DNA of 25,650 nucleotides from positions 1 through 25,650 of the IMG/VR virus record IMGVR_UViG_3300021138_000152; one strand, given 5' to 3'. How positions within the stretch are numbered: position 1 is the first letter of the stretch; every line of letters starts with the position of its first letter. The notes under the pieces are model-generated. The model was not told the origin of the DNA and did not search any database. It worked only from the letters and a program-made list of their open reading frames with translations. Source of the DNA: a virus. Shown here piece by piece: positions 1,871 through 22,410 of this stretch. Made by a program: the position numbers and the translations under genes.

Positions 1871-2785
1871 ATGACAAATTTAACTACATTTAACCCCTCT
1901 AAAGTTCCAGCATTTCTTAAAAAGGCTGAATTATCTCCAATGGCAAGAGCATTGGCAGGCGGTACAGGCGCAGGCATCAAGCGCATCTCTCTTAAAGGTG
2001 GTGTATTCCGTTTGGTAGCCGGTGGTAAAGAAGTTGCCGCTATTGATGACCGCCACCTCGACGTCGTGATTGTTAACGCCGCACATAAAATTAGCCGTAC
2101 GTTCTACGCAGGACAGTACGTTGAGGGCGAAACAAAAGCGCCTGATTGCTGGTCAGCAGAAGGTGACTTACCGGACTCAACAGTTCTAGAACCTCAATCT
2201 AAATCCTGTGCAACATGTCCACAAAATATTAAAGGCTCAGGCCAAGGTGAGACACGTGCTTGCCGATTCTCTCAGCGTCTAGCGGTTGTTTTAGCTAACG
2301 ACTTAGAGGGAGATGTTATGCAGTTATCTCTAGCGGCTACTTCAATCTTTGGTAAGGACGAAGGCGAAGCGCGTAGACCGTTGCAAGCTTATGCTAGATG
2401 GTTAGCCGCGCAAAATATTAGCCCTGAGACTGTTATCACCCGTCTTAAATTCGATACAAAGGTCTCAACACCTAAGTTGTTCTTTATGCCAGTACGTTAC
2501 TTAGAAGATGATGAGTACGCTACAGTAGTAGATAAAGGCCAGTCTGATGACGCCAAACTCGCAGTTACAATGACTGTTGCACAAGCTGATAACGTAAAGC
2601 CGCCTGCTATTGAGTATAAAAAGCCCGACGCCCCTAGAGCGAAGCCCGTAGAAGAGCCAGTAGCTGAGGAAGAAGTTGACGAGCCTGAAGTACGTAAAGA
2701 AACTAAGGCAAAGCCAACAGTAGTTCCTAAAAAGGGCGGTAACTTAGCCTCAGTAGTTGATAACTGGGATGCAGACGACGAGTAA
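1871..2785 (+). CDS. Putative single-stranded DNA-binding protein with Cys motif and acidic tail
   Basis: 304 residues. Four cysteines (C93, C113, C116, C131) in a DCW...CATCPQN...ACR arrangement could bind zinc. The body before and after is beta-rich, and residues ~240-300 form a Pro/Lys/Glu-rich linker that ends in NWDADDE. A flexible linker with an acidic C-terminal tip is the hallmark by which T7 gp2.5 and bacterial SSB recruit partners, and the gene sits between a helicase and a primase-helicase. The single-stranded DNA-binding role is inferred from this tail and context, not from a recognised OB-fold signature. AAGGAAA upstream serves as ribosome binding site. Another possibility is a recombination-mediator or other replication accessory protein. 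Confidence 0.75.
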   Translation: MTNLTTFNPSKVPAFLKKAELSPMARALAGGTGAGIKRISLKGGVFRLVAGGKEVAAIDDRHLDVVIVNAAHKISRTFYAGQYVEGETKAPDCWSAEGDLPDSTVLEPQSKSCATCPQNIKGSGQGETRACRFSQRLAVVLANDLEGDVMQLSLAATSIFGKDEGEARRPLQAYARWLAAQNISPETVITRLKFDTKVSTPKLFFMPVRYLEDDEYATVVDKGQSDDAKLAVTMTVAQADNVKPPAIEYKKPDAPRAKPVEEPVAEEEVDEPEVRKETKAKPTVVPKKGGNLASVVDNWDADDE

Positions 2786-2904
2786 TAGTTACGGGGGGAA
2801 AGCAACAAGTCGGCTCGGCGACTATAAATAGCCTGTACGGTAATGAAATAAACTTCATACTTACGAAAAAACTGCAAGTACCCCCACCTACAAACGGAAA
2901 TAAA
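2786..2904 (+). other. Structured untranslated spacer upstream of the HTH gene
   Basis: 119 bases with no ORF. They contain a hairpin AGTCG-gctcgg-CGACT (2808-2823), a second imperfect hairpin built on ATGAA/TTCAT, a GGGGGG run near 2793 and a CCCCC run near 2880 that could close the whole element by long-range pairing. A TATAAA (2824-2829) follows the first hairpin but no matching -35 box was found. The ribosome binding site for the next gene is weak (CGGAAATAAA). It may be a leader controlling translation of the HTH gene; this is inference from pairing by eye. Confidence 0.3.
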
Positions 2905-3168
2905 ATGGCCTATTCAAATACAATAAAACAAACAACGGCTAAAGCCCCTAAGTCACTAGGTAATCAACTAGGGCGGTGGGCTATTCACCTCGATTTTCCA
3001 GTAATCAAGATAGCCAAATATACTGGGGCAACTAGACAGACGGTCTACAATTGGTTTAGTGGTACTGAAGTAACACCTGCGTACAGGGAAAAAGTCAGCA
3101 ACCTACTAAGAATTCTTCAAGCAAGTAAAACAGCAGACGAGGCACTACGCAATGTACAACATAATTAA
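2905..3168 (+). CDS. Small helix-turn-helix DNA-binding protein
   Basis: 87 residues. Residues ~32-55 read IKIAKYTGATRQTVYNWFSG, a clear helix-turn-helix with the recognition helix RQTVYNWF, resembling Cro/C1 (XRE) or phage terminase-small-subunit-like HTH folds. The sequence continues with a helix EKVSNLLRILQ that may mediate dimerisation. It probably binds DNA as a regulator of this arm. It lies downstream of the structured spacer and its end overlaps the next small ORF by 17 bases. The ribosome binding site is poor, so expression may be modest or controlled by the leader. Confidence 0.75.
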   Translation: MAYSNTIKQTTAKAPKSLGNQLGRWAIHLDFPVIKIAKYTGATRQTVYNWFSGTEVTPAYREKVSNLLRILQASKTADEALRNVQHN

Positions 3169-6188: not shown

Positions 6189-6214
6189 GAGACCCCCGTC
6201 AAAGGGGGTTTTTT
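6189..6214 (+). terminator. Rho-independent terminator of the replication arm
   Basis: The core is ACCCCC-gtcaaa-GGGGGT (6192-6209), extendable by G-U and A-T pairs, followed by a run of six T (6209-6214). It starts about 20 bases after the stop of the primase-helicase gene. On the opposite strand the hairpin is followed by TCTCTT only, so it should work mainly for rightward transcription. Confidence 0.85.
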
Positions 6215-6330: not shown

Positions 6331-9300
6331 TTACTCGTTTGAAATAGCCCTAAAATCTTTGGCAAGTTGTATTTTATCCTGTCGGTTTGCATCGAGTAGC
6401 TTACGTTTTTCAGCGGAAGATAAAGACTTGTCTGCACGTACGGCTCTCTCTTCTTTGTTGTACTCCCCCATTTGTTGCTTAAACATACCGGCGGCATTAG
6501 CGTTATCAATTTGGCTCATATATTTTCTGTAGAATGCATCCGCTTTATCAGGGTCTTGTTCATTGAGGCGCTTGTATGTTGCACTAGCTTGCTCAATATT
6601 TTGCATGTCAACGTATGCTTTATTGATTAAGCCTGTAGCATCTGTAGGTTGGAAGAAACCACCGACAATCGGTAAGTCTTTTGACGTAGCATCAGGCGCA
6701 GAACCTTCTCTAAGGATTGGGTTAAACATAGACATCATCGCAGTACCAATACTGCCTGTATAGCCGTTAACAAGATGGTCAATCTGAATAGGTGAAACAC
6801 CTAAAGTCCTACCAACAAGTTTAGATAGCTCTGTAGTGGTTGCATTAGAACGATATCCCGGAAGTTCTTGTAACTGGCGCTGACTTTCAATTGGAGACAT
6901 TGTGTAGAAATTAGTGTTAGTTAAGCTTTCCATAATAGGTTTGGCGCCTTGCGGCAAGAACAAGTTAGAAACCCCTGGAACTTGGCTAACAACTAATTTA
7001 GCGACAGCAGGCAGTACGTCTTTAGATTTAGCATCGGTAGCTGCTAGGTTATACATCGCTTCGGGCAAGGCCTTGAATACCACACCTGATTCAAATGGAA
7101 TTGGTACTTTAATCGGGTCTTTAAAGAAAGGCAACGGAATGAACCAGTTATTTAGTTTGTCATACTCGTCAGCGTTCTTGTACGCTTCATTGTTCTGCAT
7201 CAAAGCGGTGTATGCTAAAGTCAAACCAGCAACAGTAGCGCCACGTTTAAGCATAGTTTCTCTTACGCCTAGCTTATCTTCAAACAAAGACTTACCTGAT
7301 ATAGCTCTTGCAAATACGTTAAGACCTTGAATCTGTGAGTTAAAGAAAGGAATCATTGTACTTAACATGCGTACAGTAGGCGAGTAACCGTGTTTAGTAA
7401 AGTTCTGCGCTTCAAGAGTTGCCAAAGATGCTTCCATTGAGGACATGCCTTTTTTAATAAACCCATTGTACAAAGATAATCTAGCGGATTCATCAGCCAT
7501 AATAGCTAAGCGGTCTGCTTTAGCCCAAAGTTTTTCCCATCCTGATTTACCCTCAGCCATCTGTAAAGCGATAGTACGCATGTCAGCCATAGTACCCGAA
7601 AATACATGACCTCCAATAATACCTTGTTCTTGTAGCTTACGAATTTCAGGTGCTTCGCCCTTAGCCATTTTGTTTAAAGCGCTTAGCGTACTTATAATAG
7701 GTTTATTATCAGCACCACTAGTTATCCATCCGGACAGTGAATCTTTAAATGCTACACGCATAGCGTACGCAGGGTTACGGGTAGTACCTTTTCTTAACAA
7801 GTCGGCAGGCCCACGCAAAAAGCTAACTGCGGCCGGTAGCGTCATCGATATACCTTCCATACCTTTAACAATTAACTCAGATGGAATATTACCAAACATA
7901 CTGGCAGATTCACGACTTGCCTCAGCACGTTCACGTAACTTTTTATACTCAGGAGTATTAGCTTTACCTGCGGCACGCATCTTTTCAAGGGCAGACTCCA
8001 TGTTTTTATATTCGCCAGACGTGTTAATGACAGCGTGTTTCTTTTCACCGTCCTCGTAAAAGCGTATAACATCTTTAGAAGCAGGCCCATCGCCTTTCTT
8101 AATATCAGCTATACCAAGAGTTTGCAAAGTGTAAGCGGTGTTCTTAGCCGCTATGTTACCCATAGCCATGTCAGTCAACATGTATGTATTCTGTAGTGCG
8201 CCAGTTTCAAAGTTAACAATGGCACTATCACCGCCAAGTAGTTCTCTTAAATACGATTGCGTCTTTAAATCCCCAACCTTAACATTACGCTCGTTATCCC
8301 AAACTTCATCATTCTTGTCAACACGGTAGTAAGCAACATAATCGCCCTTCTTCATTTCAGCGGCTTCAGCTTTTGATAACCTACCAGACTCAACCATAAA
8401 ATCTAACTGGCCATTGTTGTATTCACGGTAAAGTTTACGGGCTTCTTGAAAATGGGTATTGCCACGTCCAAATTTTAAAACCTCATCAGCCATCTTAGTT
8501 GTTACTTTTCCAGCAAGATTTAAAGATTCAAGCCCAGCTTCTAAGCCACCTTTATTACTTGCCGCACGCTCAACCGCTAAGTACAATCCAAACTGCTCAA
8601 GCGCCGCTGTACCATTACCGATTTCATCTTTTGCTTTACCTGCAACTTCAGCCACTTTAGCTAAAGATGGGCCTTTTTTAGATGCGTAGCTATACGTACC
8701 GTTCTTTTCATCTTTAACAATACCGACAGGCCCATGCGTAGCAATCTCAGACATCATGTTGTTACGCTGATCGTATAGGCGGTTGTAGTACATCATTTGC
8801 AAACCTTCTAGCTTGTCTCTCATATTGCGTGCAATATACTCAAGACCTGCAAATCTATCTACAAATCTGTGCGCCATAGTCATACCAAGCGCATTACCTT
8901 TAAGTCTATCTAAGACAGTTTTTTCTTTTTGATAAACAGTACCGGCAGTATCTCTTAAGCCTGAACTAAACCCTTCAAGATATTTAGGGTCTCTGCTAAA
9001 CACAACGCTACCATCATTAGTTCTAAACCCACCCAGCTCATCACGCTGAAAACTACGCTCAGACTGGCGGATGATGTTGAAGATATCGCTGGTAGATACT
9101 TTTGATAGCTCAGCAAAACCTTTATCACGTAAGAACGCACGTACAGCACCAACTAACTCTTTCATCCAGCGGTTAGCTTTTTGTACGAATCCTTCGGTAG
9201 CACGTTGCTCAGCAGTGTGTGCAATCAATTCTCTAACAGCACGTATCTCCATGTCTTTCATTAAGGCATCTATTTCTGCTTTAGACGCACCAGCTTCACC

Positions 9301-12300
9301 ACGTTTTTTAATTGTAAGCGCATAGTCAGCAATTGTGCCGTCAATAAGGTTACGAATACCTAAGTCATCAGCAAGTTTAAGAACACCGCCATGTTGGTCA
9401 TTAATACGTTTATTTAAAGCTTCAAAGCCTTTTTCACCAAGTAGTCTATCAACCCCAACGTGACCAAGTAACTCGTGCGCGTAGGTAGTTTCCAAGTCTT
9501 TCATGCTTGTGTGATTACCGCCAATAATATAAACTTCACCGTCACGATTTACATAGCCTCTAACGCCGTTACCGTTTTCGCTACCTTCGGTTATACCATC
9601 AAGTTCTAAACCTTTTCTTTCTTTTTCCGGTAGGTCCGCTATAGTATCAACGTAGTTTACTTTAACGTCTTTAGGTAACTTTTTCTTTAAGTTCTCAACA
9701 AACTCTCTAGCTTTCGATGGCGGTAAACCATTTTGACGAGACGCAGTTAACCGGTACCTATTCTGGCTTGGCCCTTCAAAATAAGTATTGTTCGGCCCAT
9801 AGCCATGCTTTTCGCTTGCAATAGCTTCGGCAACATCATTTTCTACTTTTTTATCTATTTCAGCCGTTCCAGTTTTTAATGACTTTTTACGTTCCTTTTT
9901 TCCTGGTTTATCGCCAAGAACTACCATTGATCTTTCTACACTAGCGCCAAAATCTTTAAGTAAATCTAAATTGTGTTTTAAAATGTTTACTACTTCGCCT
10001 AAATTTTTATTTTTTACTTTTTTCTTAAATGCTTCTAAAGCTGCTTTTGCATCAGCTTGCTCTGTAACTGTTTTAGCATTTTTTAAATTATTTTCTAGCG
10101 TAACAAGTTTATCAGCGTCGTTTTTAATTTCTTGCTTTTTTTCCGTAAAAGCTTTTCCTAAAGATGCTTCAGCTTTTTTTAAATCGCTAATGTCAATGTC
10201 GCCTGCCCTTTTATTTTCAAGCGCATCCGCGGTTGTTTTAAGGGTATTTAATGTTTCTTCTAAATCTTTAACTTTATTAGCTAAATCTTTTTCTGCAATT
10301 TGTTTTTTAAGGTTTTGTATTTTATTTGTTTTTTCTACCTGATTATCAATAGATTTAGCCTGCGCTAAAGCTTTTTCTAAATTACTTAATTCTTTTTGAT
10401 CTTTTGCAATTTGGTCTTTTGCATCTCTTATATTTTTCTCAACGGCATTAATACCTGCTTCTGCAAGTTTAAGACTGCGCGCTTCCATTTGTTTTTTCCG
10501 AATCTCTGCCATCTGCCTAGCGCCTTCAGCGGTAGCTTCTTTAAGTTCTGCAAGTCTTTCTGCTTCTGTTTTAGGCGCAACTTTTCTTGTAATCTTTTTA
10601 ACACGTAAAGGTTCAGCGAGAATATCACGTCTATTTTTAAGGGTATCTAAACTGCGAGCTTCGCTTTTGTATGCTTCTGAGCTTTTATCAAGCTTAGCCA
10701 TACGTGCTTCAGCTTCTCTAATCTGCTTTTTAACGTCTGCGTACTCTTCTGATTTTTTAAGCGATGTTTCTAAAAAACTAAGTTGTTTTTCTTGTTTTGC
10801 GTATTCTGGGGTTGTATTATCCCCTTCTTTTAACGCTTCTTTTAACTCTTCTTTTAAAGACTTTATGTCTTTTTTTAGCTGTCGAATATCTTCAGGTCTT
10901 GTTCTTAGCCCTACAGAAACAGACGTTTCTACATCAAAATCTTCAACTTTTTCTACAATTTTTCTAGTTAATACGTCTGTTGTAACTTTTGTGCTAGGCA
11001 ATGTACTATTAATTTCAGCAAATTTTTGTTCAAGCTCGCGTTTTTGACGAACCATTGTTTCTAACTGCTCATTAGCTTTAGCTTGAACAGCACCCGTCAA
11101 TCTTCGTTCTTCAGCTACTTTTTCTGCCGATGCTTTTACTTCAGGGCTAACTTCTTTTATACTGATTATTTTAGCTTCAAGCTCATTTAAAAGGTTAACC
11201 TCAATCTCAACGTCAGCACGTATTATTTTTTTAGCTCTTTCTACTAGTCTATCAACTATATCTAATACTTTAGCCCTAGCTTCCGGACCGCCTTCATCTA
11301 TTTTTCGTAAAGTTTCTTCCGCAGTTTCTAGTTGTTTAATAAAAGTAGGAAGCTTATCCATACTTGCATCTACTTTTTCTAGACTGTCTTCAGCTTTTTT
11401 TATGTCTTTAGTAAGAACGTCAACTCTCTTTTTTTTCTTTTTGTCTGTGTCAGGTAATTTTTCTGCAATTTTAAGAAGACGTTTATTTTCATTTATGTAA
11501 TCAACAAAATCTTTTCTTTGCTTATATACAGAACGCGCGGTGGCTAAAAAGTTTTCATCCGATGTGTTTATGTTAAAAACTTCTGAAATATCTTTCTTTT
11601 CTTTTTCAATCGTTTTTTTAACACGCTCTATGTACGTAACAAGATCGGTCCTTTGCGTCATAAGGTCTTGCGCTTGTTGTAAAAGCATTTTAGAAGACTT
11701 TTCTTGGTCAAACGACCATAAAAAATTATCTTCAATAAACATGCGTTGTTCTTTTATTTCGTCGAGTAGTGTACCAAACTCTCTAGAACCTTTAAGTTCA
11801 TCAGCTAATTTTTTTTCTTCTACTTTTAAACGGTTCAATCGAAGGTCGTGTAAAAATAAACGCCTATCGTAGTTGGCCCTAATTTTGTTTAACTTTTTTT
11901 CCGGTAGTTCTGCTTTTTGTTTTTCTGTTGGCTCAAATCTAGGAGGACGTTTTGCCTGTGATATATTTTCTATTTGTAAACGTAAAGCCTCAAGCCGTTT
12001 TACTTTTCCAGCATTAGGTGAAACATGACCCTGTTTAGAAGGCTCTTCTTTAGCGCTAATTTTGCCGGATGCAAGTTTTTCTTTTAGCTTACGAACTGTC
12101 GCTGACTGCAATAGCTTAACAAAGTTTTCATGCGAAGTACGCACCGTGGCAATAGGCTCAAGTTCTTTTTCATCAAACAAGTTGCGTTGGTCGGGATTTA
12201 CACCCTCAGGTTCTTTTATGCCTGCTTCTTTCTCACGGACAGTTAAAGTGCTTTGTTCTTTACGTTCGTAAATTGGCGTGTTTACTTTTTTACCGTTTGG

Positions 12301-15300
12301 TCCTGTGTTTTTATACGTGCCTTTTTCTATTAGCTCTTGGTCTTTTAACGGAGCTTGTTTTGATTCAACAACGTCCGGTTCCGCTTTTACTTCTGCAAGT
12401 TCTTTTTTTAATTCTTTTAGTTTTTCTGTACGGCTGCTCTCACCGGCAAAAGTCAAGTATCGCCCAAGAATTGTTCGTAACGCAAGCTGTTCTTTTTTAA
12501 GCTCGTCTATTTCTTTAACTTCTTCTCTTGTTGGCCTTTCTTTATCTAAAGCGTCGATTTGTTTTTCAACTTCTTTAAGTTTTTTAGCTACTCCTGGGCC
12601 TGCTCCCGGTGCAAGGTCACTGATTCGTTCTTTTAAAACTTTTATGCGTAAAGCTTTAGGTAGGTTGCCCGCAGGCGCAAGTTCAAAAGGCGCACGTTGT
12701 ACCCTAGATGCACCTTCAAAGTAGTCTTTCTTAATAGCTTCAAGAGACTCTTCGAAATCTTTTACAGCGCTATCACTTTTTTTATTCTGTTCTGCTAACT
12801 CTTCTTTTTGTTTTTCTAACCGTTTAAGAAGGTTTTCTCTTCTTTCAACGTCAAACTTTTTAGGAGAGTCTTTTAGTTCTTCGTATGTTTTTTTAGTAAG
12901 CGCGATGGCTTTTTCTAATCTCTTAGTGCGTCTAGCTAAAATGGTAGGGTCTTTAGCAAGAAGATCAAATTGTTTTTGTAAAGTGGTAGTTAACTTTAAA
13001 GCGTCGTCTACGCTTAATGATTCTTGTTTGTATTGTCTGCGTACAGCGTTAATTTCATCGACCGCTGCTTTAGTGTACTCTTTACCGGCATCGCTAATTT
13101 TATTCTCAAGGCCCGACTTCATTGTTGACGCTACGTCAACGTTTCTACTATTAAAGTACTCGCCTGACAGTATAGAACGTACAGTTTCAATGGCATCTCG
13201 TTTAGCTGCTTCTTGACGAGTAAATGCTTCTTTCTCAGCAATTATGGGTCTACCCTCAGACGTTTCAATTTGAGCTGTTGCGAAACGTTTTTGTAATTCA
13301 TCAATTGTAGCTACATGCTGTTGTCTTTCAGCATCAGTCATAGCGTTATTGTAATTATTTTTGGCTTCTTCCAACGAGCGTTTAATTCTTTCGACACGTT
13401 GCACTTGATTTTCTATTGTTTCACCAGATACAACACCAGTCCTACTCGCTTCTTTTTCTAAAGCAGACTCACGTAACTTATCAATTAAGTTGTTAATAAT
13501 TCTATCAGACGCCCCAGAAGCATACGCTTCTTCAAGATCAAGTAAACCCTGTTGGTAGCTATCTATTACTTCTTCAGACTTAGGACGTGCTTTTTCTACC
13601 TGCGCAAATAAATCTTGCTGTTCTTGTTGCCTTTGTTCGGCTTCTGTAGCAACTGCTTCTTTTTTTAGACGCGCTGCTTGGCCAAGTAAATCTTCACCTT
13701 CGGGCAAACCTTTAAGCTTCTCTTGAATTTCTTTAATGTTAGTGCTTAACTTAGCAATCTTTTCAAAATCGCCTTTATCGCCCGCCGTTTTAAGGGCTTT
13801 TACTTGCGCCGCCAATTGGCCTTTTAGCGTAGAACGCTGAACATCTACCGACTGTTCTATAGGTGATGTTTTCTTAACACGTTCTGTAGATGTTACTAAA
13901 GCTTTTTGTGCGTTAGTTAACTGCGTACTTAAATCGCCAATGGACTCGATATTGCCCTCAGCGGCTGCCTTAGCCACTCTGTCTTGTAGTTCGTCAACAT
14001 GGTTTTTAAGTGTGTCATGTTGTCTAAATATTTCTTGTGGAGTAATGTCAGAGGGTTTGTTTGCTTTGGCTTCACGTTCCGCTACGGTTTCCGTTCCAAT
14101 TATGTTTTGTGTAGCACCGTAAGTAGGCTCGCCTTTTTCATTTACGCCTGTTTTAAAGTAGTTGATTTTGTTTTCTAATGGGCTTACCGCACCTTCAACT
14201 AGCTTCTTACCTTTAACATCCGTTTGTAACGGAGCCTCGGTAAATAAATTGCCTGTCTCTCCTTGACGTTTTTGAAACTCAGCCTGCTGCCTTTGTTGCT
14301 CAGCTTGCTGCATAGCATCAGCTTGTTCAGCGGCTATTTTATCTTCGTCAGCACGTTTTTGTTTATCTAGCTCTGCTTGTCTTTTATTGGCACTAACTTC
14401 AATAGCTCTTTTTTCACCACCGCGTTTAGGTAAGCCGTGTAATGCGCCAAAGATAGGAGACAATTCAAGAGCTCCAATAGCGTTTTCTTTGTAGGCTTCA
14501 AATGCTTCAGGAGTAAAGACCCCTTGGTCAGCGGCTGCACGTCTAGCGGCTTCAGTACCAACCATCATAGCTGTACCAGTAACGGCATTAACGCCCATAC
14601 CTTCTAGTGTATTTCTAAGAGGCCCATGCAGTTTTGCAATAGCTTCTTCTTTTGTTATTACGCCTTTAGCAACTTGTTCACCAAGCGTAACTGCTTCTTT
14701 ACCTAAAATTTTATTTACTGCTTTAACCGCCACTCCTGTACCAGGAATACCAAAACCCGTTAAGCCAGCTTGAAGAAGACCATATCCTAAAGCTTTACCA
14801 ACATCTTTAGTAGCACCTGTTTCTTCCGCTCTATCTAAGTTTTCTGCAACTTCAGCGGGTAAATCAGCTAATGCAGTGGCGGCAGAACCAATTAAGCCAG
14901 CACCAACTGCGCCAACACCAGCTACAGGAGCAAGTGCGGCAGCTCCAGCACCAACAGCCATAGGCGCACCATAACGGCCAACAATACCGCCAACAGGTTC
15001 ACTAACGTATTTTCTAAAGGCGGCACCAACGCCGGGAACTAACCCTTGGCTCATTGCTTGGTCTACATCTTCAGAAGTTGTAGGAATAAATTGGTTTTGT
15101 TTAGCAGCTAATTTATCTTGTGCGCCCCAGTCTTTAAGTATCTTACTGTTAAAAAGTTCGCCAAGTCCGCTTTCAGTAGATGCTTTTGCTTCTCTAAATG
15201 CAGTTCCAGCAGCAGCGCCTAAGCCTTGACGTTCTTCTTTTTCGCCGGGTGTTAAGAAAGCAACTGGGAATTGCTCTTGCGCTTTAGCAATTGCCTCTTG

Positions 15301-15360
15301 GGGGTTCATCCCTTTAGGGATTTCTAAATATTGACCGCTAGGCAGTTGCAAATAAGGCAT
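6331..15360 (-). CDS. Giant 3009-residue polyvalent/ejection-type internal virion protein
   Basis: The N-terminus (PYLQLPSGQYLEIP, then a proline-glutamine module) resembles short domains heading other phage ejected proteins. Residues 131-165 are a Gly/Ala hydrophobic stretch that could enter a membrane. Residues ~313-1810 are Lys/Glu/Leu-rich coiled coil with few prolines. Around H1962 is YAHELLGH, with RELIAH (E2044) some 80 residues later, a peptidase-like arrangement seen in large phage polyvalent proteins. The last ~900 residues are helical; segments near 2510-2548 (SFLRGPADLL) and ~2657-2685 (MIPFFNSQIQGL) recall the large polyvalent protein-associated domain LPD38, from memory only. 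It is last in the late operon, the position of T7 gp16, so I infer a role in DNA ejection or early host takeover. The start follows GGGA by a few bases and is in frame with the conserved N-terminus. ORFs on the other strand across it are shadows. Confidence 0.85.
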   Translation of the reverse strand: MPYLQLPSGQYLEIPKGMNPQEAIAKAQEQFPVAFLTPGEKEERQGLGAAAGTAFREAKASTESGLGELFNSKILKDWGAQDKLAAKQNQFIPTTSEDVDQAMSQGLVPGVGAAFRKYVSEPVGGIVGRYGAPMAVGAGAAALAPVAGVGAVGAGLIGSAATALADLPAEVAENLDRAEETGATKDVGKALGYGLLQAGLTGFGIPGTGVAVKAVNKILGKEAVTLGEQVAKGVITKEEAIAKLHGPLRNTLEGMGVNAVTGTAMMVGTEAARRAAADQGVFTPEAFEAYKENAIGALELSPIFGALHGLPKRGGEKRAIEVSANKRQAELDKQKRADEDKIAAEQADAMQQAEQQRQQAEFQKRQGETGNLFTEAPLQTDVKGKKLVEGAVSPLENKINYFKTGVNEKGEPTYGATQNIIGTETVAEREAKANKPSDITPQEIFRQHDTLKNHVDELQDRVAKAAAEGNIESIGDLSTQLTNAQKALVTSTERVKKTSPIEQSVDVQRSTLKGQLAAQVKALKTAGDKGDFEKIAKLSTNIKEIQEKLKGLPEGEDLLGQAARLKKEAVATEAEQRQQEQQDLFAQVEKARPKSEEVIDSYQQGLLDLEEAYASGASDRIINNLIDKLRESALEKEASRTGVVSGETIENQVQRVERIKRSLEEAKNNYNNAMTDAERQQHVATIDELQKRFATAQIETSEGRPIIAEKEAFTRQEAAKRDAIETVRSILSGEYFNSRNVDVASTMKSGLENKISDAGKEYTKAAVDEINAVRRQYKQESLSVDDALKLTTTLQKQFDLLAKDPTILARRTKRLEKAIALTKKTYEELKDSPKKFDVERRENLLKRLEKQKEELAEQNKKSDSAVKDFEESLEAIKKDYFEGASRVQRAPFELAPAGNLPKALRIKVLKERISDLAPGAGPGVAKKLKEVEKQIDALDKERPTREEVKEIDELKKEQLALRTILGRYLTFAGESSRTEKLKELKKELAEVKAEPDVVESKQAPLKDQELIEKGTYKNTGPNGKKVNTPIYERKEQSTLTVREKEAGIKEPEGVNPDQRNLFDEKELEPIATVRTSHENFVKLLQSATVRKLKEKLASGKISAKEEPSKQGHVSPNAGKVKRLEALRLQIENISQAKRPPRFEPTEKQKAELPEKKLNKIRANYDRRLFLHDLRLNRLKVEEKKLADELKGSREFGTLLDEIKEQRMFIEDNFLWSFDQEKSSKMLLQQAQDLMTQRTDLVTYIERVKKTIEKEKKDISEVFNINTSDENFLATARSVYKQRKDFVDYINENKRLLKIAEKLPDTDKKKKKRVDVLTKDIKKAEDSLEKVDASMDKLPTFIKQLETAEETLRKIDEGGPEARAKVLDIVDRLVERAKKIIRADVEIEVNLLNELEAKIISIKEVSPEVKASAEKVAEERRLTGAVQAKANEQLETMVRQKRELEQKFAEINSTLPSTKVTTDVLTRKIVEKVEDFDVETSVSVGLRTRPEDIRQLKKDIKSLKEELKEALKEGDNTTPEYAKQEKQLSFLETSLKKSEEYADVKKQIREAEARMAKLDKSSEAYKSEARSLDTLKNRRDILAEPLRVKKITRKVAPKTEAERLAELKEATAEGARQMAEIRKKQMEARSLKLAEAGINAVEKNIRDAKDQIAKDQKELSNLEKALAQAKSIDNQVEKTNKIQNLKKQIAEKDLANKVKDLEETLNTLKTTADALENKRAGDIDISDLKKAEASLGKAFTEKKQEIKNDADKLVTLENNLKNAKTVTEQADAKAALEAFKKKVKNKNLGEVVNILKHNLDLLKDFGASVERSMVVLGDKPGKKERKKSLKTGTAEIDKKVENDVAEAIASEKHGYGPNNTYFEGPSQNRYRLTASRQNGLPPSKAREFVENLKKKLPKDVKVNYVDTIADLPEKERKGLELDGITEGSENGNGVRGYVNRDGEVYIIGGNHTSMKDLETTYAHELLGHVGVDRLLGEKGFEALNKRINDQHGGVLKLADDLGIRNLIDGTIADYALTIKKRGEAGASKAEIDALMKDMEIRAVRELIAHTAEQRATEGFVQKANRWMKELVGAVRAFLRDKGFAELSKVSTSDIFNIIRQSERSFQRDELGGFRTNDGSVVFSRDPKYLEGFSSGLRDTAGTVYQKEKTVLDRLKGNALGMTMAHRFVDRFAGLEYIARNMRDKLEGLQMMYYNRLYDQRNNMMSEIATHGPVGIVKDEKNGTYSYASKKGPSLAKVAEVAGKAKDEIGNGTAALEQFGLYLAVERAASNKGGLEAGLESLNLAGKVTTKMADEVLKFGRGNTHFQEARKLYREYNNGQLDFMVESGRLSKAEAAEMKKGDYVAYYRVDKNDEVWDNERNVKVGDLKTQSYLRELLGGDSAIVNFETGALQNTYMLTDMAMGNIAAKNTAYTLQTLGIADIKKGDGPASKDVIRFYEDGEKKHAVINTSGEYKNMESALEKMRAAGKANTPEYKKLRERAEASRESASMFGNIPSELIVKGMEGISMTLPAAVSFLRGPADLLRKGTTRNPAYAMRVAFKDSLSGWITSGADNKPIISTLSALNKMAKGEAPEIRKLQEQGIIGGHVFSGTMADMRTIALQMAEGKSGWEKLWAKADRLAIMADESARLSLYNGFIKKGMSSMEASLATLEAQNFTKHGYSPTVRMLSTMIPFFNSQIQGLNVFARAISGKSLFEDKLGVRETMLKRGATVAGLTLAYTALMQNNEAYKNADEYDKLNNWFIPLPFFKDPIKVPIPFESGVVFKALPEAMYNLAATDAKSKDVLPAVAKLVVSQVPGVSNLFLPQGAKPIMESLTNTNFYTMSPIESQRQLQELPGYRSNATTTELSKLVGRTLGVSPIQIDHLVNGYTGSIGTAMMSMFNPILREGSAPDATSKDLPIVGGFFQPTDATGLINKAYVDMQNIEQASATYKRLNEQDPDKADAFYRKYMSQIDNANAAGMFKQQMGEYNKEERAVRADKSLSSAEKRKLLDANRQDKIQLAKDFRAISNE

Positions 15361-15396: not shown

Positions 15397-17031
15397 CTAC
15401 TGTGGTTTTAATTGTAGCGTATTAGCACCTTTAGGTAAACTGTCTAAAAGCTGTGGTTGCCCGAATGTACCGCTGTTAATAGCTTGTTGGTACTGTAAAG
15501 GCGTAGTAATACCCATGGCTAAAAACTCACGTTTTTGTTTTGGGTCTTTTGAAGCTTTGTCAAAGTCTGTTATAGCCTGTTGAACAGTTATTTGATTTAT
15601 TTTAGCATTTGCTCCAGCGCCTTTAGCTGCCATAACGCCGGGCATTTCATTGTAGTAGTTTGCTCTAGCCTTAAGTTCCGAAATTTCAGCAGGAGCTTTG
15701 TATGCAGAAATGTTGATTTGATTTGCTTTAGCCATATTTTCACCAATAGTATTTTGCAGCTGAATACCATTTGCTTGATACCTTTGAGCAAGTTCTTGGT
15801 TGCCTTGTTCAGCGGCTTCAGCAGCTTTCTGCATACTGAATGTGTAGTCACGATAATCTTTCTGCAATTCTTTAGCTTCTTTGCGGCTTAAATTTAAAGC
15901 GGCAAGACCTGCAGTGTTGCCTTCTTGAATAGCTTTACCAAACTGCGGATTAGATACTAGAGCCGCACCCATGTTCATCATATACTCGCCAATACCTTGG
16001 CTCTTACGGTCTTCAATTTCTTTCTTGCGTTCAGGTTCTGCTTTAGCGTACTCATCCAGCATTGCTTGGAATCGGCTATGTTTGTCTTTTAGTTCAGAAA
16101 TAGTATTGTTAATACTCTGATACATTGGGTCTGCCTGAATCATTTCTTGTGTATCTTCAAGAGTCATTATTTTTGGTCCAGCATCTGCTTTAGGCGCAGC
16201 TGGGCCTGCTACTTGTTTAGCCTTTAATATATCTGCTATACCACCTTCAGCTGGAGCAGTTGATGACTTTGTATTTACAGGCGGGGTTTCAGGCTTAGGC
16301 ACAGCAGCTGGCGGTGTTGTGGTTGAACTAGCAGTGGGTGCAGGTGCAGGTGCAGGTGTTGGAGTTCTACCGTATACAGCCTGATATGCCTGCTTAGAAG
16401 TATCAGACATAGGAAGAGGTATATTTTTATCTACGGCTTTAAGAGCTTTATTTCTTAAATTGTAGTAGTCGCTGATTGACATATTAAGGTCTGACGGCGC
16501 TGTTTCAGGCATACCCTCATTTATTGCTGCGTACGCGGCTTTTCTTCTATCTTCAGGAGTTCCGCCTACATCAAAAGCAATAATACCTCCTTCAGCCATA
16601 TTCTGAATATTAGGTGCTGGTAACTGGTCTAGCCCAGCTTCAGGTTGTATTTGTGCAGTTTGTTGTGGAGCAGCTTGTGGTTGCCCTATGCCTTGTTGAG
16701 GCGGTACTATCATCCTTTGTGGATTAGCCGCTTGCTGTTCAGCAGACAATAACTGGTCTTTAATGGATTGTTGTGGGGGTTGTTGCCCAGCCATGGCTGT
16801 GCGTAACTCTTGACGACCTTGAGCTGCCAACATAGCAGCAAATTGAGGGACTGGAGTAGGTGTACCATTGATATCTAAATGTACAGGTTTTCCTGCTAAC
16901 ACATCAGCAAGAGTTTGGTCAGGCACATCTTTTAGCATGTGCATCATAGCCATCATGCCAGACAAATCTTGTCCTTGTTTTTGTGGCGCTCCAAGAGCAG
17001 CGCCTAATCCAGCTTGTTGCATGTTCATCAT
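15397..17031 (-). CDS. Putative internal virion (ejection) protein, gp15-like position
   Basis: 544 residues. The Met- and Gln-rich N-terminus contains MMAMMHML and a Gln/Pro-rich linker. MAEGGIIAFDVGG (146-157) is a glycine motif also seen in the 502-residue protein. A Pro/Ala/Thr linker (about residues 220-270) leads to a long helical C-terminal half with charged heptads, including YMMNMGAALVSNPQFGKAIQEG, a pattern I associate with internal or tail-tape-like proteins of podoviruses. It lies between the 322- and 3009-residue genes; its start is 4 bases after the 322-residue gene's stop and uses GGAAG as ribosome binding site. Three nearby ATG codons (17031, 17028, 17022) leave the exact start open. 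No enzymatic domain was seen; ejectosome role is inferred from position. Confidence 0.75.
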   Translation of the reverse strand: MMNMQQAGLGAALGAPQKQGQDLSGMMAMMHMLKDVPDQTLADVLAGKPVHLDINGTPTPVPQFAAMLAAQGRQELRTAMAGQQPPQQSIKDQLLSAEQQAANPQRMIVPPQQGIGQPQAAPQQTAQIQPEAGLDQLPAPNIQNMAEGGIIAFDVGGTPEDRRKAAYAAINEGMPETAPSDLNMSISDYYNLRNKALKAVDKNIPLPMSDTSKQAYQAVYGRTPTPAPAPAPTASSTTTPPAAVPKPETPPVNTKSSTAPAEGGIADILKAKQVAGPAAPKADAGPKIMTLEDTQEMIQADPMYQSINNTISELKDKHSRFQAMLDEYAKAEPERKKEIEDRKSQGIGEYMMNMGAALVSNPQFGKAIQEGNTAGLAALNLSRKEAKELQKDYRDYTFSMQKAAEAAEQGNQELAQRYQANGIQLQNTIGENMAKANQINISAYKAPAEISELKARANYYNEMPGVMAAKGAGANAKINQITVQQAITDFDKASKDPKQKREFLAMGITTPLQYQQAINSGTFGQPQLLDSLPKGANTLQLKPQ

Positions 17032-17034
17032 ATA

Positions 17035-18003
17035 TTAGCTTCCAAATGCTTTGTAAGCGCCAGCTGCGCCTAATCCAAGACCCATTAACTGTTGTGTAGT
17101 TGTAGGGTTTGCTTGATATGTTTGTGTTGTAGCGGACTGTAATGGTAAACCGTGTAACAAATTTGATAAGTATCCCAACTGCATATACGGGTACTGCTGA
17201 GCATTAGCGTAGTTTTGTACGCCCTGATTAATAATATTCTGCTGTTGATTCTGTTGCTGCGCGCCCATTTGATTCTGTTGATTAAGAATATTTTGCTGCG
17301 CACCTAGTTGCTGCCCACCAATGTTAGCTAAGTTAGCCCCCATTTGCCCAGCTTGACCTAAACCTTGTAAACCTAATTGAGCGCCTGTATTCATTTGAGA
17401 CTGCGCGTTATTAAATGCTTGATTATACGCATTACCTACTAATTGATTAGTGGCAAGTAACTGGTTCTGATTATTTAAACCAGACATAATGGCTTCACGA
17501 CCACCACCAAATGCGCCTGCCTGTGTAGCCTGCCCTTGTTCTTGAGCTTGTTGTTGGCCATATTGCTGGTTTAATAACTGAAGTTGCGGGGCTAAAGATG
17601 CCTGTAAATATGGGTTCATATAAGCTTGAACCTGATTAGGGTCGGTAGCCATATTTTGAAAGTTTTGCCCAGCGTTTAATGAACCTAGCCCAGCTTGCGC
17701 TGTTAATGCACTACCTTGACCATACTGGTCTGGAGTTTGAAGATTAGCCGCACCAGAAAACGACTGCTCTTGCATAGGGGAAAACCCTGCTACATAATCT
17801 GCGGGGTTAGTACTATAAGGCGTGTACGGTTGTGTTGTTGTGTAAGTAGTATTACCATTAGCATCCGTTGTCGGTTGAAAAACTTGCTGCTGTGCAGCAC
17901 TCATCATATTTTCTACATATGGTTGTGCATAAGCCGGTAAGTTTGTTTGCTGTACCGTGCTGGTAGTATTTGTTGGTTGTGAACTTCCGCCGCCGCCGCT
18001 CAT
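17035..18003 (-). CDS. Gln/Asn-rich putative internal virion protein, gp14-like position
   Basis: 322 residues, very rich in Gln, Asn, Ala and Gly. After a glycine-rich start (MSGGGGSSQP) come PAYAQPYVENMMSAAQQQ and YMNPYLQASLAPQLQLLNQQ, then QAGAFGGGREAIM, followed by long Gln/Asn helices and a C-terminal GLGLGAAGAYKAFG that may be membrane-seeking. This composition and the GGGREA segment match my recollection of proteins beside tail genes in marine and freshwater podoviruses. In T7, gp14 has a comparable position and is ejected into the outer membrane; equivalence is inferred from order only. Its ATG overlaps the previous stop as ATGA, implying translational coupling. Confidence 0.75.
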   Translation of the reverse strand: MSGGGGSSQPTNTTSTVQQTNLPAYAQPYVENMMSAAQQQVFQPTTDANGNTTYTTTQPYTPYSTNPADYVAGFSPMQEQSFSGAANLQTPDQYGQGSALTAQAGLGSLNAGQNFQNMATDPNQVQAYMNPYLQASLAPQLQLLNQQYGQQQAQEQGQATQAGAFGGGREAIMSGLNNQNQLLATNQLVGNAYNQAFNNAQSQMNTGAQLGLQGLGQAGQMGANLANIGGQQLGAQQNILNQQNQMGAQQQNQQQNIINQGVQNYANAQQYPYMQLGYLSNLLHGLPLQSATTQTYQANPTTTQQLMGLGLGAAGAYKAFGS

Positions 18004-18404
18004 AATTTAATCTCCACTAAATTTGCTTTATTGTTAAGTCCGTGACGTATATAAAGTCTTGTTAATGAGTCACGAGCGTATCCTTGAATTCGTGTAGCAC
18101 CCATTCTGCGCAAAATATTAACCATTTGACCAAAAATATCAGATTTTATTATACCTTTACCGCCTATAGTAGTTATAAAAGCTGTTCTATAATTAACGTC
18201 ATTATCAAATGCTACGGTAGCAACCCCGTGAATTTGCTGTAAATCATCTACTGCAACTAACAAAATCCATGAACCGTTTGTAATAAATACTTTTACTTGG
18301 TCTAAGTTGTAGTCATCTGTGTATTGTAATGCACGCTCTATGTAGGGCGCAACTGCCGACCAGATTTGTAATACATACTCAACGCCGACTGTTTGAATTT
18401 TCAT
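18000..18404 (-). CDS. GNAT-like small protein, T7 gp13-like position
   Basis: 134 residues. The pattern of an N-terminal helix pair (VLQIWSAVAPYIERAL), strands VKVFITNGSWILLVAV and IHGVATVAFD, a helix DIFGQMVNILRRMGA and a final strand-helix ending in RDSLTRLYIRHGLN fits an acetyltransferase (GNAT) fold. The usual acetyl-CoA loop R/Q-x-x-G-x-G/A is represented only by IGGKGIIKSD, so catalytic activity is uncertain. T7 gp13, of similar size and in the same place before the internal proteins, is required for assembly. It overlaps both neighbours by ATGA, so it is embedded in a translationally coupled series. Confidence 0.7.
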   Translation of the reverse strand: MKIQTVGVEYVLQIWSAVAPYIERALQYTDDYNLDQVKVFITNGSWILLVAVDDLQQIHGVATVAFDNDVNYRTAFITTIGGKGIIKSDIFGQMVNILRRMGATRIQGYARDSLTRLYIRHGLNNKANLVEIKL

Positions 18405-19909
18405 GCTGGTAGGTACTTTTCTGCTTTAATTTGTTTACCCTGCTTAGGGTTTCCTGTTCTTGCCTTACGTACTTTGTCCATCATAGAATATAAACGCTTA
18501 GCTCCGGCATCTGTTGACCCATTACCTAAATGAGAAACTACATCCGCAGGTACTACAAACTCACCTTCAGCTAAACGAGCTGGCTGGTGCTTACCAATCC
18601 TAGCAGGGATATTATCACTCATACCATCGCCCGGACCTTTTAATAGCCTACCGCCATCTGAGTAAGAACCTAAGTTGTAAGTCTCACCACCCCGTGCTAA
18701 ATTAAGTTGTCCTAGCCCGCCAGTAGTAGGTGGAACAGCTCCAGATGGCATTTGTGCCATAGCCATAGCGTTATTTAACTGCGCACCTGAAGCGGCTAAT
18801 GGGTTCATCATAGCTAGTTCAGCTGCATTTGTGTACTTAGGTTTTTTACTTTTTACATCTCCACCATTAGCAAACTTCATAGCGCCTGTATACGGGTCAG
18901 TCACTGCATCTGTCGGCTCTATTACATTAGTACCTGTCGGAGTATTAGTAGCATTCTGGTAGGTATTCATACCAGTTAAACCGCCTAGTCCAGACTGAGG
19001 AAAAGCTTGATTTCCACCAATAGCATTCTCTCTTGACATCTGCTCTACAGTACCACCCATAGGCATACCGCCTTCTGCCAAAGCTATAATACCGCCGGTT
19101 GCCGCTCTGTAAGGGTTTGTTTGGTAATTTCTATACTGCGCTTGGTACGCTGGAGATGGCTGTGCGGGTATTTGTGGGTGGTAATTTGGGTCTAATCGAG
19201 TCGTGTTGTACCCTGTATCTTGTTGGCCGGGTATCGCCCCTACTGAGTTTGGTTGCTGTGACATCATTGCTGCTCCAGCTATGCCAGCTAAAGGTTTCCA
19301 GTTTGCTGTTGCAAAATCAACCGCCGCTCCCGGACTAGATGTTACGTTTGAAAGACCCTGCATCATGTTAGTGCCTTGTCCCGTAATTTTACCGGTAGCG
19401 TTACCTGCTTCTTCCATAGCTTGTTGTCTAATGGTGTCTTGTGCTGCCGTATCTGTAATACCTTGAGTAGCGGCCTGTTGAACTGCTTGTTCTCCAGCTG
19501 TGTTTGCTGCTGTTTGCGCAACTTCACCGGTTGCTGCTCCTGCCGACGCTGCTCCAGATGCTGCAAGACTTTCTCCTAAACTACCACCACCATAAATACT
19601 TAACCCAGTCATCAGCCCGTGTCCTAAATCACCCGTTTTAGAGTAATCGTAAAGACCGCCTGCGCCAGCTACAAAAGGTAAAAGTTCAGGAGCGAATACA
19701 GCAGTACCAATGCCTATAGCTGCTGGTAAAATAGAATCTAAAATACCTGCTTCAGGTAGGCCTGTGTGTGGGTTCATCGTAAGACTTTTACCATGGGCGT
19801 GCGCTAAACTTTGTAATCCAGCCAATTCTTTGTTTGACATATGTACGAGTTTACTATCAGGACCGCGACCGCGTTCCTCAAGGTGTTTAGCTACTTGTTG
19901 TAAACTCAT
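18401..19909 (-). CDS. Putative tail/internal virion structural protein with conserved EFVVPADVVSHLG tail
   Basis: 502 residues from the ATG at 19909 (MSLQQVAKHL). An ATG 15 bases further upstream is open but lies on the wrong side of the ribosome binding site AAGGAG. A helical N-terminus is followed by an Ala/Gly hydrophobic stretch (LPAAIGIGTAVFAPELLPFVAGAGG) and Ala/Gln/Thr-rich low-complexity sequence. Then come several glycine motifs (GGIIALAEGG, FANGGD, SDGGR) and a conserved-looking C-terminal block with GPGDGMSDNIPA, EFVVPADVVSHLG and AKRLYSMMDKVRKART. I recall the last block from tail-region proteins of aquatic podoviruses; its function is not known to me. It is the first of the group placed after the nozzle-like gene and is likely a virion component. 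Confidence 0.78.
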   Translation of the reverse strand: MSLQQVAKHLEERGRGPDSKLVHMSNKELAGLQSLAHAHGKSLTMNPHTGLPEAGILDSILPAAIGIGTAVFAPELLPFVAGAGGLYDYSKTGDLGHGLMTGLSIYGGGSLGESLAASGAASAGAATGEVAQTAANTAGEQAVQQAATQGITDTAAQDTIRQQAMEEAGNATGKITGQGTNMMQGLSNVTSSPGAAVDFATANWKPLAGIAGAAMMSQQPNSVGAIPGQQDTGYNTTRLDPNYHPQIPAQPSPAYQAQYRNYQTNPYRAATGGIIALAEGGMPMGGTVEQMSRENAIGGNQAFPQSGLGGLTGMNTYQNATNTPTGTNVIEPTDAVTDPYTGAMKFANGGDVKSKKPKYTNAAELAMMNPLAASGAQLNNAMAMAQMPSGAVPPTTGGLGQLNLARGGETYNLGSYSDGGRLLKGPGDGMSDNIPARIGKHQPARLAEGEFVVPADVVSHLGNGSTDAGAKRLYSMMDKVRKARTGNPKQGKQIKAEKYLPA

Positions 19910-19914
19910 AATAT

Positions 19915-19920
19915 CTCCTT
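19915..19920 (-). promoter_or_regulatory. Ribosome binding site deciding the start of the 502-residue gene
   Basis: On the - strand, AAGGAG is followed by ATATT and the ATG at 19909, an ideal 5-base spacing. This excludes the alternative start at 19924, which lies upstream of the site. Confidence 0.8.
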
Positions 19921-19942
19921 GCAATTATCTTGATTTTACCAC

Positions 19943-20215
19943 TTAAACTGTCGTACCACTAGCGTTTTTCCATACAGTGCCGTTATACCAAATAGGAATA
20001 CCTAGGGTAGTGTCAAAGTATTGTTGCCCTACTTGAAGCTGTAATGTTGGTCTTTTTGCCGTTGTCCCACTTAACGGTGTTATTAGCCCTGCTACTGCAT
20101 TATCTATCTGATTAAAATATAACCCTAAAATCTGCTCAAACTGATCCATAAACAACTTATTGTACTCAAGCGGTGCAGCAGGCAGTCGAGGATTTTTTGT
20201 TGGGATAAGCGCCAT
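19943..20215 (-). CDS. 90-residue putative tail-associated structural protein
   Basis: Starts at the ATG at 20215, which shares one base with the stop of the nozzle-like gene (TGATG); a GTG three bases upstream is a less likely start. The sequence opens IPTKNPRLPAAPLEYNKLFMDQFEQIL, continues with a helix LYFNQIDNAVAGL, and ends QQYFDTTLGIPIWYNGTVWKNASG, a strand-rich segment found at the ends of many phage fibre and tail proteins, where it decorates or caps a trimer. Similar small proteins recur next to nozzle genes in aquatic podoviruses as far as I recall. Exact role unknown. Confidence 0.7.
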   Translation of the reverse strand: MALIPTKNPRLPAAPLEYNKLFMDQFEQILGLYFNQIDNAVAGLITPLSGTTAKRPTLQLQVGQQYFDTTLGIPIWYNGTVWKNASGTTV

Positions 20216-22410
20216 CACCTTTTCCCGTCTGGTTTAATATCTAGTCTTGGAACACCTAATTGCCATTGAACACCTACATCCGATGAGGACACTACTAATG
20301 ACATTTGACGACCACGAATTCTACAATACGCATATTGCGTAAACTGTTGCACTTCATAGGTACTTTGACCTACATAATTCTGTCCGCTAGTTACTACCGG
20401 CAAATCTGAGCTACCATATGAAGAGCCAGGGTTTTGTCTTGGCAACACTGTAAATGTGACTTTTGGATTGTTAACTGTAGAGCCATTGAAACTAATATCC
20501 GGTATCATGCGCCATACAAAGCCGAAATTATGCCCGTCCCCAATGTCAAAATCGGATGACTGAATATAAGAATCAAGTGCTACTGGTGGGTTTGCCGTAC
20601 CATTATCAACAGCGCTCTCGTGATAAATAATACCTGATTGAACTACGCCAATATCAGTCACGGTTACACCAGAATTATGCACCGATGCTACTGTACCATA
20701 AGCACCTCTTGAGCATCCCAGTAAAGATGTTTGGGTTGAGCTTGTATAAATGATCCGTTCTGCTTCAATTTCTACTACCCCAGATGAAGGGAAATTACCT
20801 TTGTTTGCAATATATATTGTCGTATCTGTCAACCCAACTGCTTGTGTAAGCGTTGTTACTGGAGCGTATCCTACTGCCGTTGGATATCCTCTAAGTGGTG
20901 TGTCAGACCAAGCAGTTCTAGTTAAATTACCATAATACCAAGTTTGCTCTAAATGGTTATAAATTACATACTTATCAATAACAAGTGAATTAGCAGAACA
21001 GTAATACCACCACACCTCATTAAAACCCTCATTTACCCCAGCAAAGAACTGATAAGACTGAGATTGATTTATGTCTTGATATACATATTCTCTAACGGTA
21101 CATGGTAGGGTTTGCACTTGTCCAGAATACATGAAGAACTTATCTTTACCCATCCAGTAAGTAACGTTGTTAACCGCCACTGCAACGTTAGGACCCATAA
21201 TAGAAATATTGTCGCCAAGAATATTAAAGCCCCATACATACGGCGCACCTAGGTATTGCATAGAATATATTGCAACATCAGTAAATACTACGATTTCTTG
21301 ACGGGTTTGCACCGCAGTAATAATCTGTGAACCACGACTTAATCTATAATTACCAGCTTGATTTGTAATTTGCGGATACCATACAGTAAGATTATTTTGG
21401 TCAGACCAACTAATTAACATTGGATCTTGAATGCCGTTGCCTAGTGTATCTGTACCAAATGCAATAACAAAACGACTAGCATCGGACACCATAACAAAAT
21501 TACAAATAGTAGGGCATGCAGCCGTACCAGCATCTGTTCTCCAATACGCAATAGTATTTTGAGTGTTTGTGTTAGTTGGGGATAAAACTTGCCCCACGTT
21601 ATAGATGTTGGGGTTTGTATCTACAACCCAGTAATAGATAGGTCCACCACGAGGATTAAATACTAAATTCTGTCCGTAGTTTGCTTGACTCCATAAACGT
21701 AATTGAGACCCAATACCTAACCCAGCAGGAGCGGGACTTCCCCATCCTGTACTAGAGTATCCGGTGTTAACTCCACCCCATCCGCCAGCACCCCACCCAG
21801 CATTTTGTGTATATGTCGCGCCACCCGATGTAATTTGATATGTTGCAATTGTAGAACCGCCACCATTTCCAGTATCGCTTGAATTGGCTGTAACTGAAAC
21901 TGTAATTGAATATTGGGATGAAGAAATGTAGGTAACTTGATACCCTTGAGCTTGATTTAAAATCGCCGCAGTTACATTACCACCTAGCGTAACGGCCCCC
22001 GTAAAGGACACAAAGTCACCAGACTGCGCATTATGTCCACTTTGAGTAACAATAAGAACAGAAGAGCCATTGGTCGCAGCAAAAGTAGCAGCACCAGCAG
22101 ATGACACCGCGCGAATGGGAGTAATATCATAAATAACACCACCAGTACCTTGCTGAATATAAATCTTTTGGTTAGTGCCAATGCCTAAGTAGTTATACCC
22201 ATTTAGCCCAATCCAGTTTTTTAATGAGCGAGCTACACCAACATAGGAGTTACCTGTGCTTACTTGACCGCCATCTAATGTCCATCCACCAATTTTTTCT
22301 ACTTGTCCAGAACGAAACCTAATTTTATCGCCCGCATACCATCCACCTTCGTTAGCAAGAGTTGTGCCTTCTCTATTTACTCCGGGGCGCATGACAAGTT
22401 TTTGTAACAT
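20215..22410 (-). CDS. Tail nozzle/hub-like structural protein (T7 gp12 or P22 gp10-type position)
   Basis: 731 residues, beta-rich throughout. The N-terminus KLVMRPGVNREGTTLANEGG, then KIRFRSGQVEKIGGW, resembles the opening of podovirus tail proteins classed as nozzle or DNA-stabilisation proteins with a propeller-like body. An internal insert (about residues 90-190) is Ser/Thr/Gly-rich and resembles a ubiquitin-like or Ig-like decoration. A later block TIYIANKGNFPSSGVVEIEAE followed by RGAYGTVASVHNSG is a small beta module that I recall from several phage tail proteins. It probably forms the exit of the tail and holds the genome in. Its start is directly adjacent to the endolysin stop (TAAATG), so tail and lysis genes share one transcript. 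Confidence 0.75.
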   Translation of the reverse strand: MLQKLVMRPGVNREGTTLANEGGWYAGDKIRFRSGQVEKIGGWTLDGGQVSTGNSYVGVARSLKNWIGLNGYNYLGIGTNQKIYIQQGTGGVIYDITPIRAVSSAGAATFAATNGSSVLIVTQSGHNAQSGDFVSFTGAVTLGGNVTAAILNQAQGYQVTYISSSQYSITVSVTANSSDTGNGGGSTIATYQITSGGATYTQNAGWGAGGWGGVNTGYSSTGWGSPAPAGLGIGSQLRLWSQANYGQNLVFNPRGGPIYYWVVDTNPNIYNVGQVLSPTNTNTQNTIAYWRTDAGTAACPTICNFVMVSDASRFVIAFGTDTLGNGIQDPMLISWSDQNNLTVWYPQITNQAGNYRLSRGSQIITAVQTRQEIVVFTDVAIYSMQYLGAPYVWGFNILGDNISIMGPNVAVAVNNVTYWMGKDKFFMYSGQVQTLPCTVREYVYQDINQSQSYQFFAGVNEGFNEVWWYYCSANSLVIDKYVIYNHLEQTWYYGNLTRTAWSDTPLRGYPTAVGYAPVTTLTQAVGLTDTTIYIANKGNFPSSGVVEIEAERIIYTSSTQTSLLGCSRGAYGTVASVHNSGVTVTDIGVVQSGIIYHESAVDNGTANPPVALDSYIQSSDFDIGDGHNFGFVWRMIPDISFNGSTVNNPKVTFTVLPRQNPGSSYGSSDLPVVTSGQNYVGQSTYEVQQFTQYAYCRIRGRQMSLVVSSSDVGVQWQLGVPRLDIKPDGKR

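Follow-up and report, generated by a model that had tools for sequence, protein, structure and literature searches.

A 3009-residue LPD38 protein, probably an ejection protein of a short-tailed phage

Overview

The window analyzed is the entire IMG/VR virus record IMGVR_UViG_3300021138_000152, a fragment of 25,650 bases. Its largest gene encodes a protein of 3009 amino acids (aa), referred to here as the giant. The giant is a member of a widespread family of giant proteins and is of a known kind; it has the longest coiled coil among 18 members compared and is effector-poor. It probably belongs to the minor virion proteins encoded by the late genes of a short-tailed phage, as the last and largest of the ejection proteins and as an analogue of T7 gp16 and N4 gp50. 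Packaging of the giant and its delivery with the DNA are suggested by gene position, by the family and by the essentiality of a homologue. The open reading frame (ORF) and its parts are as follows.

6331..15360, minus strand: giant ORF, 3009 aa, ATG to stop (ORF reading, homologues, purifying selection)
14251..15360, minus strand: conserved N-terminal domain, residues 1–370, about 50–64% identical to close relatives (alignments, AlphaFold2)
14866..14970, minus strand: Gly/Ala-rich hydrophobic stretch, residues 131–165 (composition, hydropathy; conserved in relatives)
9796..14250, minus strand: coiled-coil or helical spacer, residues 371–1855 (alignment, composition, periodicity)
9031..9768, minus strand: candidate zincin-type metallopeptidase domain, residues ~1865–2110 (motif, topology, and a weak profile match to the zincin of the N4 virion RNA polymerase, vRNAP)
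9460..9477, minus strand: HELLGH, residues 1962–1967, HExxxH zinc-binding motif (alignment)
9229..9231, minus strand: E2044, candidate third zinc ligand, in the second helix (alignment)
6334..8943, minus strand: conserved C-terminal helical module, residues ~2140–3009 (alignments, structure model, profile match)
6664..7188, minus strand: Pfam LPD38 (PF18857), residues 2725–2899 (Pfam match)

Integrity of the reading frame

An earlier note on this DNA described a single gene of 3009 residues, without naming its strand, and listed an artefact of joined genes among the findings that would refute its reading. The frame is intact. Four uninterrupted homologues (L008, L009, L011 and L042, with 2746, 2766, 2746 and 2611 aa) align with the giant from residue 1 to the end. 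A first scan gave eleven loci related to the giant; one of these, L002, covers only the C-terminal 1495 residues, where its identity is 100%. Comparison of L008, L009 and L011 gives a ratio of nonsynonymous to synonymous substitution rates (dN/dS) of 0.02–0.14 across all seven segments of the giant, with 0.09–0.14 in the coiled-coil segments. Because dN/dS is low in every segment, coil included, translation and constraint extend over the entire frame. A joined-gene artefact is ruled out by the open end-to-end homologues together with the low dN/dS throughout. Identity to relatives is 50–64% at residues 1–370, approximately 10–30% with length changes at 400–1850, and approximately 35–83% from residue 1901 to the end.

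The C-terminal module and its family

The LPD38 match in the C-terminal module has an E value of 2e-29 and a score of 103.5 bits against a Pfam cut-off of 27, and it bears out the polyvalent-type helical end described in the earlier note. LPD38 is listed as confined to phage-type polyvalent proteins (PMC5512222). The predicted C-terminal fold is matched by 67 viral models at E ≤ 1e-3, many of them named large polyvalent proteins; no solved structure of the module was found. The C-terminal 689 residues match 49 phage records by tblastn, all with less than 60% identity; a query made of the phiARM81mr homologue's C-terminal part gives 168 phage-record matches. An alignment-based viral scan for the family gives 57 loci. 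The complete family frames listed are 1999 to 3382 aa, with one exception of 1734 aa (L071). No relatives were found in bacterial genome contigs.

The phage-type polyvalent proteins with LPD38 (Iyer et al. 2017, PMC5512222) include, e.g., Escherichia phage PTXU04 gp25, Aeromonas phage phiARM81mr p69 and Vibrio phage D274 gene 20. They share with the giant the LPD38 end, the conserved C-terminal module and a location that closes the late block; in many, a zincin motif lies some 1000 residues short of the C-terminus. The difference is in what precedes the module. The phiARM81mr member has ddrB-ParB and methylase domains between the N-terminus and the C-terminal module; ahead of the module there are a helicase and a methylase in D274, a methylase in 41E34.2, a pyrophosphatase and LPD3 in CF418P1, and an ART domain in L083. 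In the giant a coil of about 1500 residues replaces the methylase-helicase, ParB, pyrophosphatase or other domains, and there is no second recognized enzyme. A Pfam search of the middles of 11 relatives shows one ART domain above the cut-off, three matches far below it and otherwise none. Members from pelagiphages and Bacillus phages are short (1253–1678 aa) and have no HExxH/HExxxH motif. With such varied inserted domains, and short members that have no motif, the C-terminal module is therefore the constant part, and both zincin and middle can be exchanged.

The candidate zincin

Residues ~1865–2110 represent a candidate zincin-type metallopeptidase, as predicted from motif and topology. The predicted order of elements is a helix, strands, the HELLGH helix and a second helix. 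The HEXXXH form among polyvalent metallopeptidases, and a zincin core of the same layout, have been described by Iyer et al. (PMC5512222); a zincin-like metallopeptidase is frequent in phage-type polyvalent proteins, though not in all of them. Of 45 aligned members, 22 have HExxGH, and one further member is truncated at the site. H1962, E1963, H1967 and E2044 are conserved among the HExxGH members, and the position of E2044 is Glu in every one of them, so the peptidase-like motif of the earlier note is a real and conserved feature. Within the 3500-aa N4 vRNAP, a profile comparison recovers the known zincin as the top match, though a weak one. A separate observation concerns seven giant relatives (L043, L046, L049, L050, L051, L056 and L060). 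In these the zincin motif is missing from its usual position, ~1000 residues before the C-terminal end, and HExTH or HExVH occurs further upstream, as if the domain had moved.

The N-terminal part and the coiled coil

The N-terminal domain is predicted to begin with a beta-hairpin (strands 3–5 and 11–13) that is followed by helices; this fold is tentative at a mean AlphaFold2 pLDDT (predicted local distance difference test) of 66. The hairpin has the motif LPxG, then GMxPxxA, which is common to many relatives. A viral scan with the N-terminal part gave 0 relatives by tblastn and 18 loci by the alignment-based method. The hydrophobic Gly/Ala segment at residues 131–165 is as the earlier note described it: 63% of the residues are Gly or Ala, and it is the sole region of the giant with a 19-residue Kyte-Doolittle mean above 1.4. 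It is possibly a membrane segment.

The middle of the giant is a fast-evolving coiled coil, as judged from composition and heptad-like periodicity. Residues ~371–1850 have approximately 31–43% K/R/E/D and are scarce in Gly, Pro and aromatic residues, and the heptad-like periodicity is strong at residues 1201–1350 (z 10.5). These properties agree with the roughly 1500 residues of coiled coil that had been proposed. No internal repeats are present in the coil. Eighteen full-length members, the giant included, have the zincin in this position; in all of them the middle is of charged, aromatic-poor composition and 600–1502 residues long, and that of the giant is the longest. Pfam matches to RVT_N and TPR_11 and a match to the NCBIfam Rad50 model are below the cut-offs and lie in helical sequence, and they are taken as composition effects. 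The Rad50 match, far below its cut-off, is the sole NCBIfam match in the spacer.

Comparison with known ejection proteins

A link to a T7-like gene order comes from Pelagibacter phage Lederberg EXVC029P. Its gp8 (1254 aa) is matched by the C-terminal profile of the giant with E=5e-37 and a probability of 99.9% over 771 columns. The C-terminal ~830 residues are homologous, and gp8 has the same place relative to the nozzle and the internal virion proteins. The Lederberg order is tail tubular proteins A and B, an annotated acetyltransferase, an internal virion protein, a 589-aa gene, gp8 and the tail fibre. Unlike the giant, gp8 has no HExxH/HExxxH motif and no long coil, and its length is T7-like. 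T7 gp16 itself, which has 1318 aa as the earlier note stated, is likewise placed after gp14/gp15-type genes and is the largest ejection protein. The giant stands at the gp16 position by gene order and by its homology to the Lederberg protein, but its neighbours cannot be aligned to T7-type ones.

N4 gp50 (~3500 aa) is encoded beside gp51 and gp52 (PMC12633501). Like the giant it is the last gene of a late run, has a zincin in its C-terminal half and adjoins two smaller ejection proteins. It has been proposed that gp50 is ejected last, as a chain of ~250–300-residue subdomains, via a conduit made of its two operon neighbours (PMC12633501). It differs in having an RNA polymerase domain, none of which is found in the giant by Pfam, and the zincin alone is alignable between the two, weakly. 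Burkholderia phage JC1 gp69, a DarB-like protein of 4515 aa that is set beside the giant by description only, also closes the virion module of a podophage; mass spectrometry detected it in purified virions (PMC9144972). The homologue in PTXU04, gp25 (PTXU04_00025), is a Fit gene and essential, and its knock-down results in a large drop in plating (PMC11879866). Expression of gp25 and of its upstream neighbours 20, 22, 23 and 24 is toxic or interferes with infection (PMC11879866). The essentiality of the PTXU04 homologue and its toxic or interfering effect on expression, together with N4 gp50 and the presence of JC1 gp69 in virions, make ejection the best reading.

Several points weigh against this reading. 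No sequence homology to T7 gp16 is detected (profile probability 0.3%, and none with the N-terminal part compared separately), so that the parallel drawn in the earlier note holds for position, through gene order and the Lederberg gp8 match, and not for homology to T7 gp16. The lytic transglycosylase domain that is N-terminal in T7 gp16 has no Pfam match in the giant. The AlphaFold2 confidence is modest in the C-terminal part (mean pLDDT 69) as in the N-terminal part, and a fold search of the PDB with the C-terminal model gave nothing at E ≤ 0.001. The zincin is absent at this place in several relatives, and the core shared function therefore does not need it. Virion proteomics for this clade was not found in the literature. 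Peptide fingerprinting of PTXU04 gel bands assigned only gp7, gp10, gp11 and gp12, not gp25 (PMC6563267); this evidence is weak because only prominent bands were cut.

Gene neighbourhood

The genes upstream of the giant form a block with it.

15397..17031, minus strand: g544, just upstream of the giant, whose homologues in relatives have the same position; a putative internal virion protein by position
17035..18003, minus strand: g322, PHROG 'DNA ejection protein' (phrog_4287, E=9e-11)
18000..18404, minus strand: g134, conserved small protein with homologues in relatives
18401..19924, minus strand: g507, late protein with homologues in relatives
19943..20218, minus strand: g91, small virion-like protein (phrog_20787, virion structural protein, E=1e-15)
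20215..22410, minus strand: g731, nozzle or packaged-DNA-stabilization-like tail protein (phrog_3287, E=1e-57)

The block g731, g91, g507, g134, g322, g544 and giant is conserved in independent contigs, with the giant last. The nozzle named in the late operon of the earlier note is supported by a match of g731 over its full length to the DSL-LC04 'stabilization protein'. The same note read the small protein g134 as GNAT-like, and this finds no support either in Pfam, where there is no match, or in a comparison with the pelagiphage gene annotated as an acetyltransferase. Of the three further virion-like genes placed before the giant, two (g322 and g544) are present between g134 and the giant. 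No match to g544 was found in the phages collection. The last ~100 residues of g507 are by far its most conserved part, and an AEGG-type motif occurs in both g544 (AEGGIIAF) and g507 (LAEGGMP). The genes that occupy the corresponding locus in DSL-LC04 and HTVC027P were considered as homologues of the giant and are unrelated by sequence, which suggests that a replacement took place there. In the contigs of five relatives (64–72 kb) there is no match to P22 portal families; there is also none to RNA polymerase families, in a search without a working control.

Other features of the window lie outside the block. A partial gene at 1–1365 (plus strand) has SNF2 and Helicase_C domains (Pfam E=2e-23 and 5e-19), and DSL-LC04 and HTVC027P likewise have a superfamily II helicase, near where their corresponding late block ends. 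A 954-aa primase-helicase-like protein at 3305–6169 (plus strand), convergent with the giant, has a weak match to a LigD-type primase-polymerase and a match to DUF927. It is followed at 6192–6214 (plus strand) by a strong-looking intrinsic terminator (ACCCCC-GTCAAA-GGGGGT and T's), which was seen by eye and is absent from the pattern-scan list. An endolysin-like protein with Glyco_hydro_108 and peptidoglycan-binding domains is located at 22411–22944 (minus strand), just upstream of g731. The record ends in a 126-base tandem repeat (25416–25650, minus strand) that gives coding repeats in a partial 195-residue frame.

Alternative explanations

The earlier note proposed a multi-domain effector delivered with the DNA. 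In its full form, with the coil and zincin acting on host proteins or defences after delivery and any conduit role secondary, this explanation is unlikely. It agrees with the methylase-helicase, ParB, pyrophosphatase or ART domains, and an annotated RelA/SpoT, of LPD38 relatives, and with the toxicity or interference seen when the PTXU04 homologue is expressed (PMC11879866). In the giant, however, no enzyme domain other than the zincin is found by Pfam, NCBIfam, PHROGs or PADLOC, and an aromatic-poor coil with ~10–30% identity between relatives is unlike a catalytic domain. What is left of the proposal is one candidate enzyme, with no effector family in the middle. Polyvalence would call for at least two disparate activities in one chain, and the giant displays a single enzyme-like domain.

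An undelivered head-assembly or scaffolding protein, with a zincin that acts in head maturation, is improbable. DdrB of phage P1 has a C-terminal metallopeptidase and is cleaved before packaging (PMC5512222), which provides a precedent, but the giant ends a block that contains a DNA ejection protein, its Lederberg homologue sits at the gp16 position, and in Lederberg and PTXU04 the gene lies apart from the capsid gene and follows the tail genes. Least credible is the tape-measure protein of a long tail. Such proteins resemble the giant in the long coil, hydrophobic stretch and peptidase-like domain; yet the neighbouring gene is of the nozzle or stabilization type, the relatives are podophages, the PTXU04 tail is short by electron microscopy (PMC6563267), and Pfam gives no tape-measure family match.

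Proposed mechanism and significance

As an ejection protein, the giant would be packed in the head in a few copies. It would be the final ejection protein to leave, either before the genome or together with it, and would thread its way through the tail as consecutive small helical units. The products of g322 and g544 may help to build a trans-envelope conduit, where the giant would then dock via its hydrophobic N-terminal part and/or the helical C-terminal module. The C-terminal ~830-residue module ending in LPD38 would be the constant ejection or packaging part, and the coiled coil a threadable spacer of drifting length. The putative peptidase would most likely cut the giant itself, in the head or after delivery, so that the C-terminal module would come apart from the coil and the N-terminal part; a host protein is a less likely target. 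More speculatively, and at less than even odds, the LPD38-ended module may be a general ejection chassis among short-tailed phages, from 1254-aa pelagiphage proteins at the gp16 position to the 3000-aa giants, that carries either effectors or, as in the giant, an effector-free adjustable coil. In this clade the zincin would then cut after ejection, and the coil and N-terminal anchor would stay in the conduit.

The polyvalent family, which was defined computationally, is tied to the gp16-position proteins of T7-like phages via one alignable module. The cultured phage PTXU04 makes it testable whether this module is an ejection part and what its peptidase cuts.

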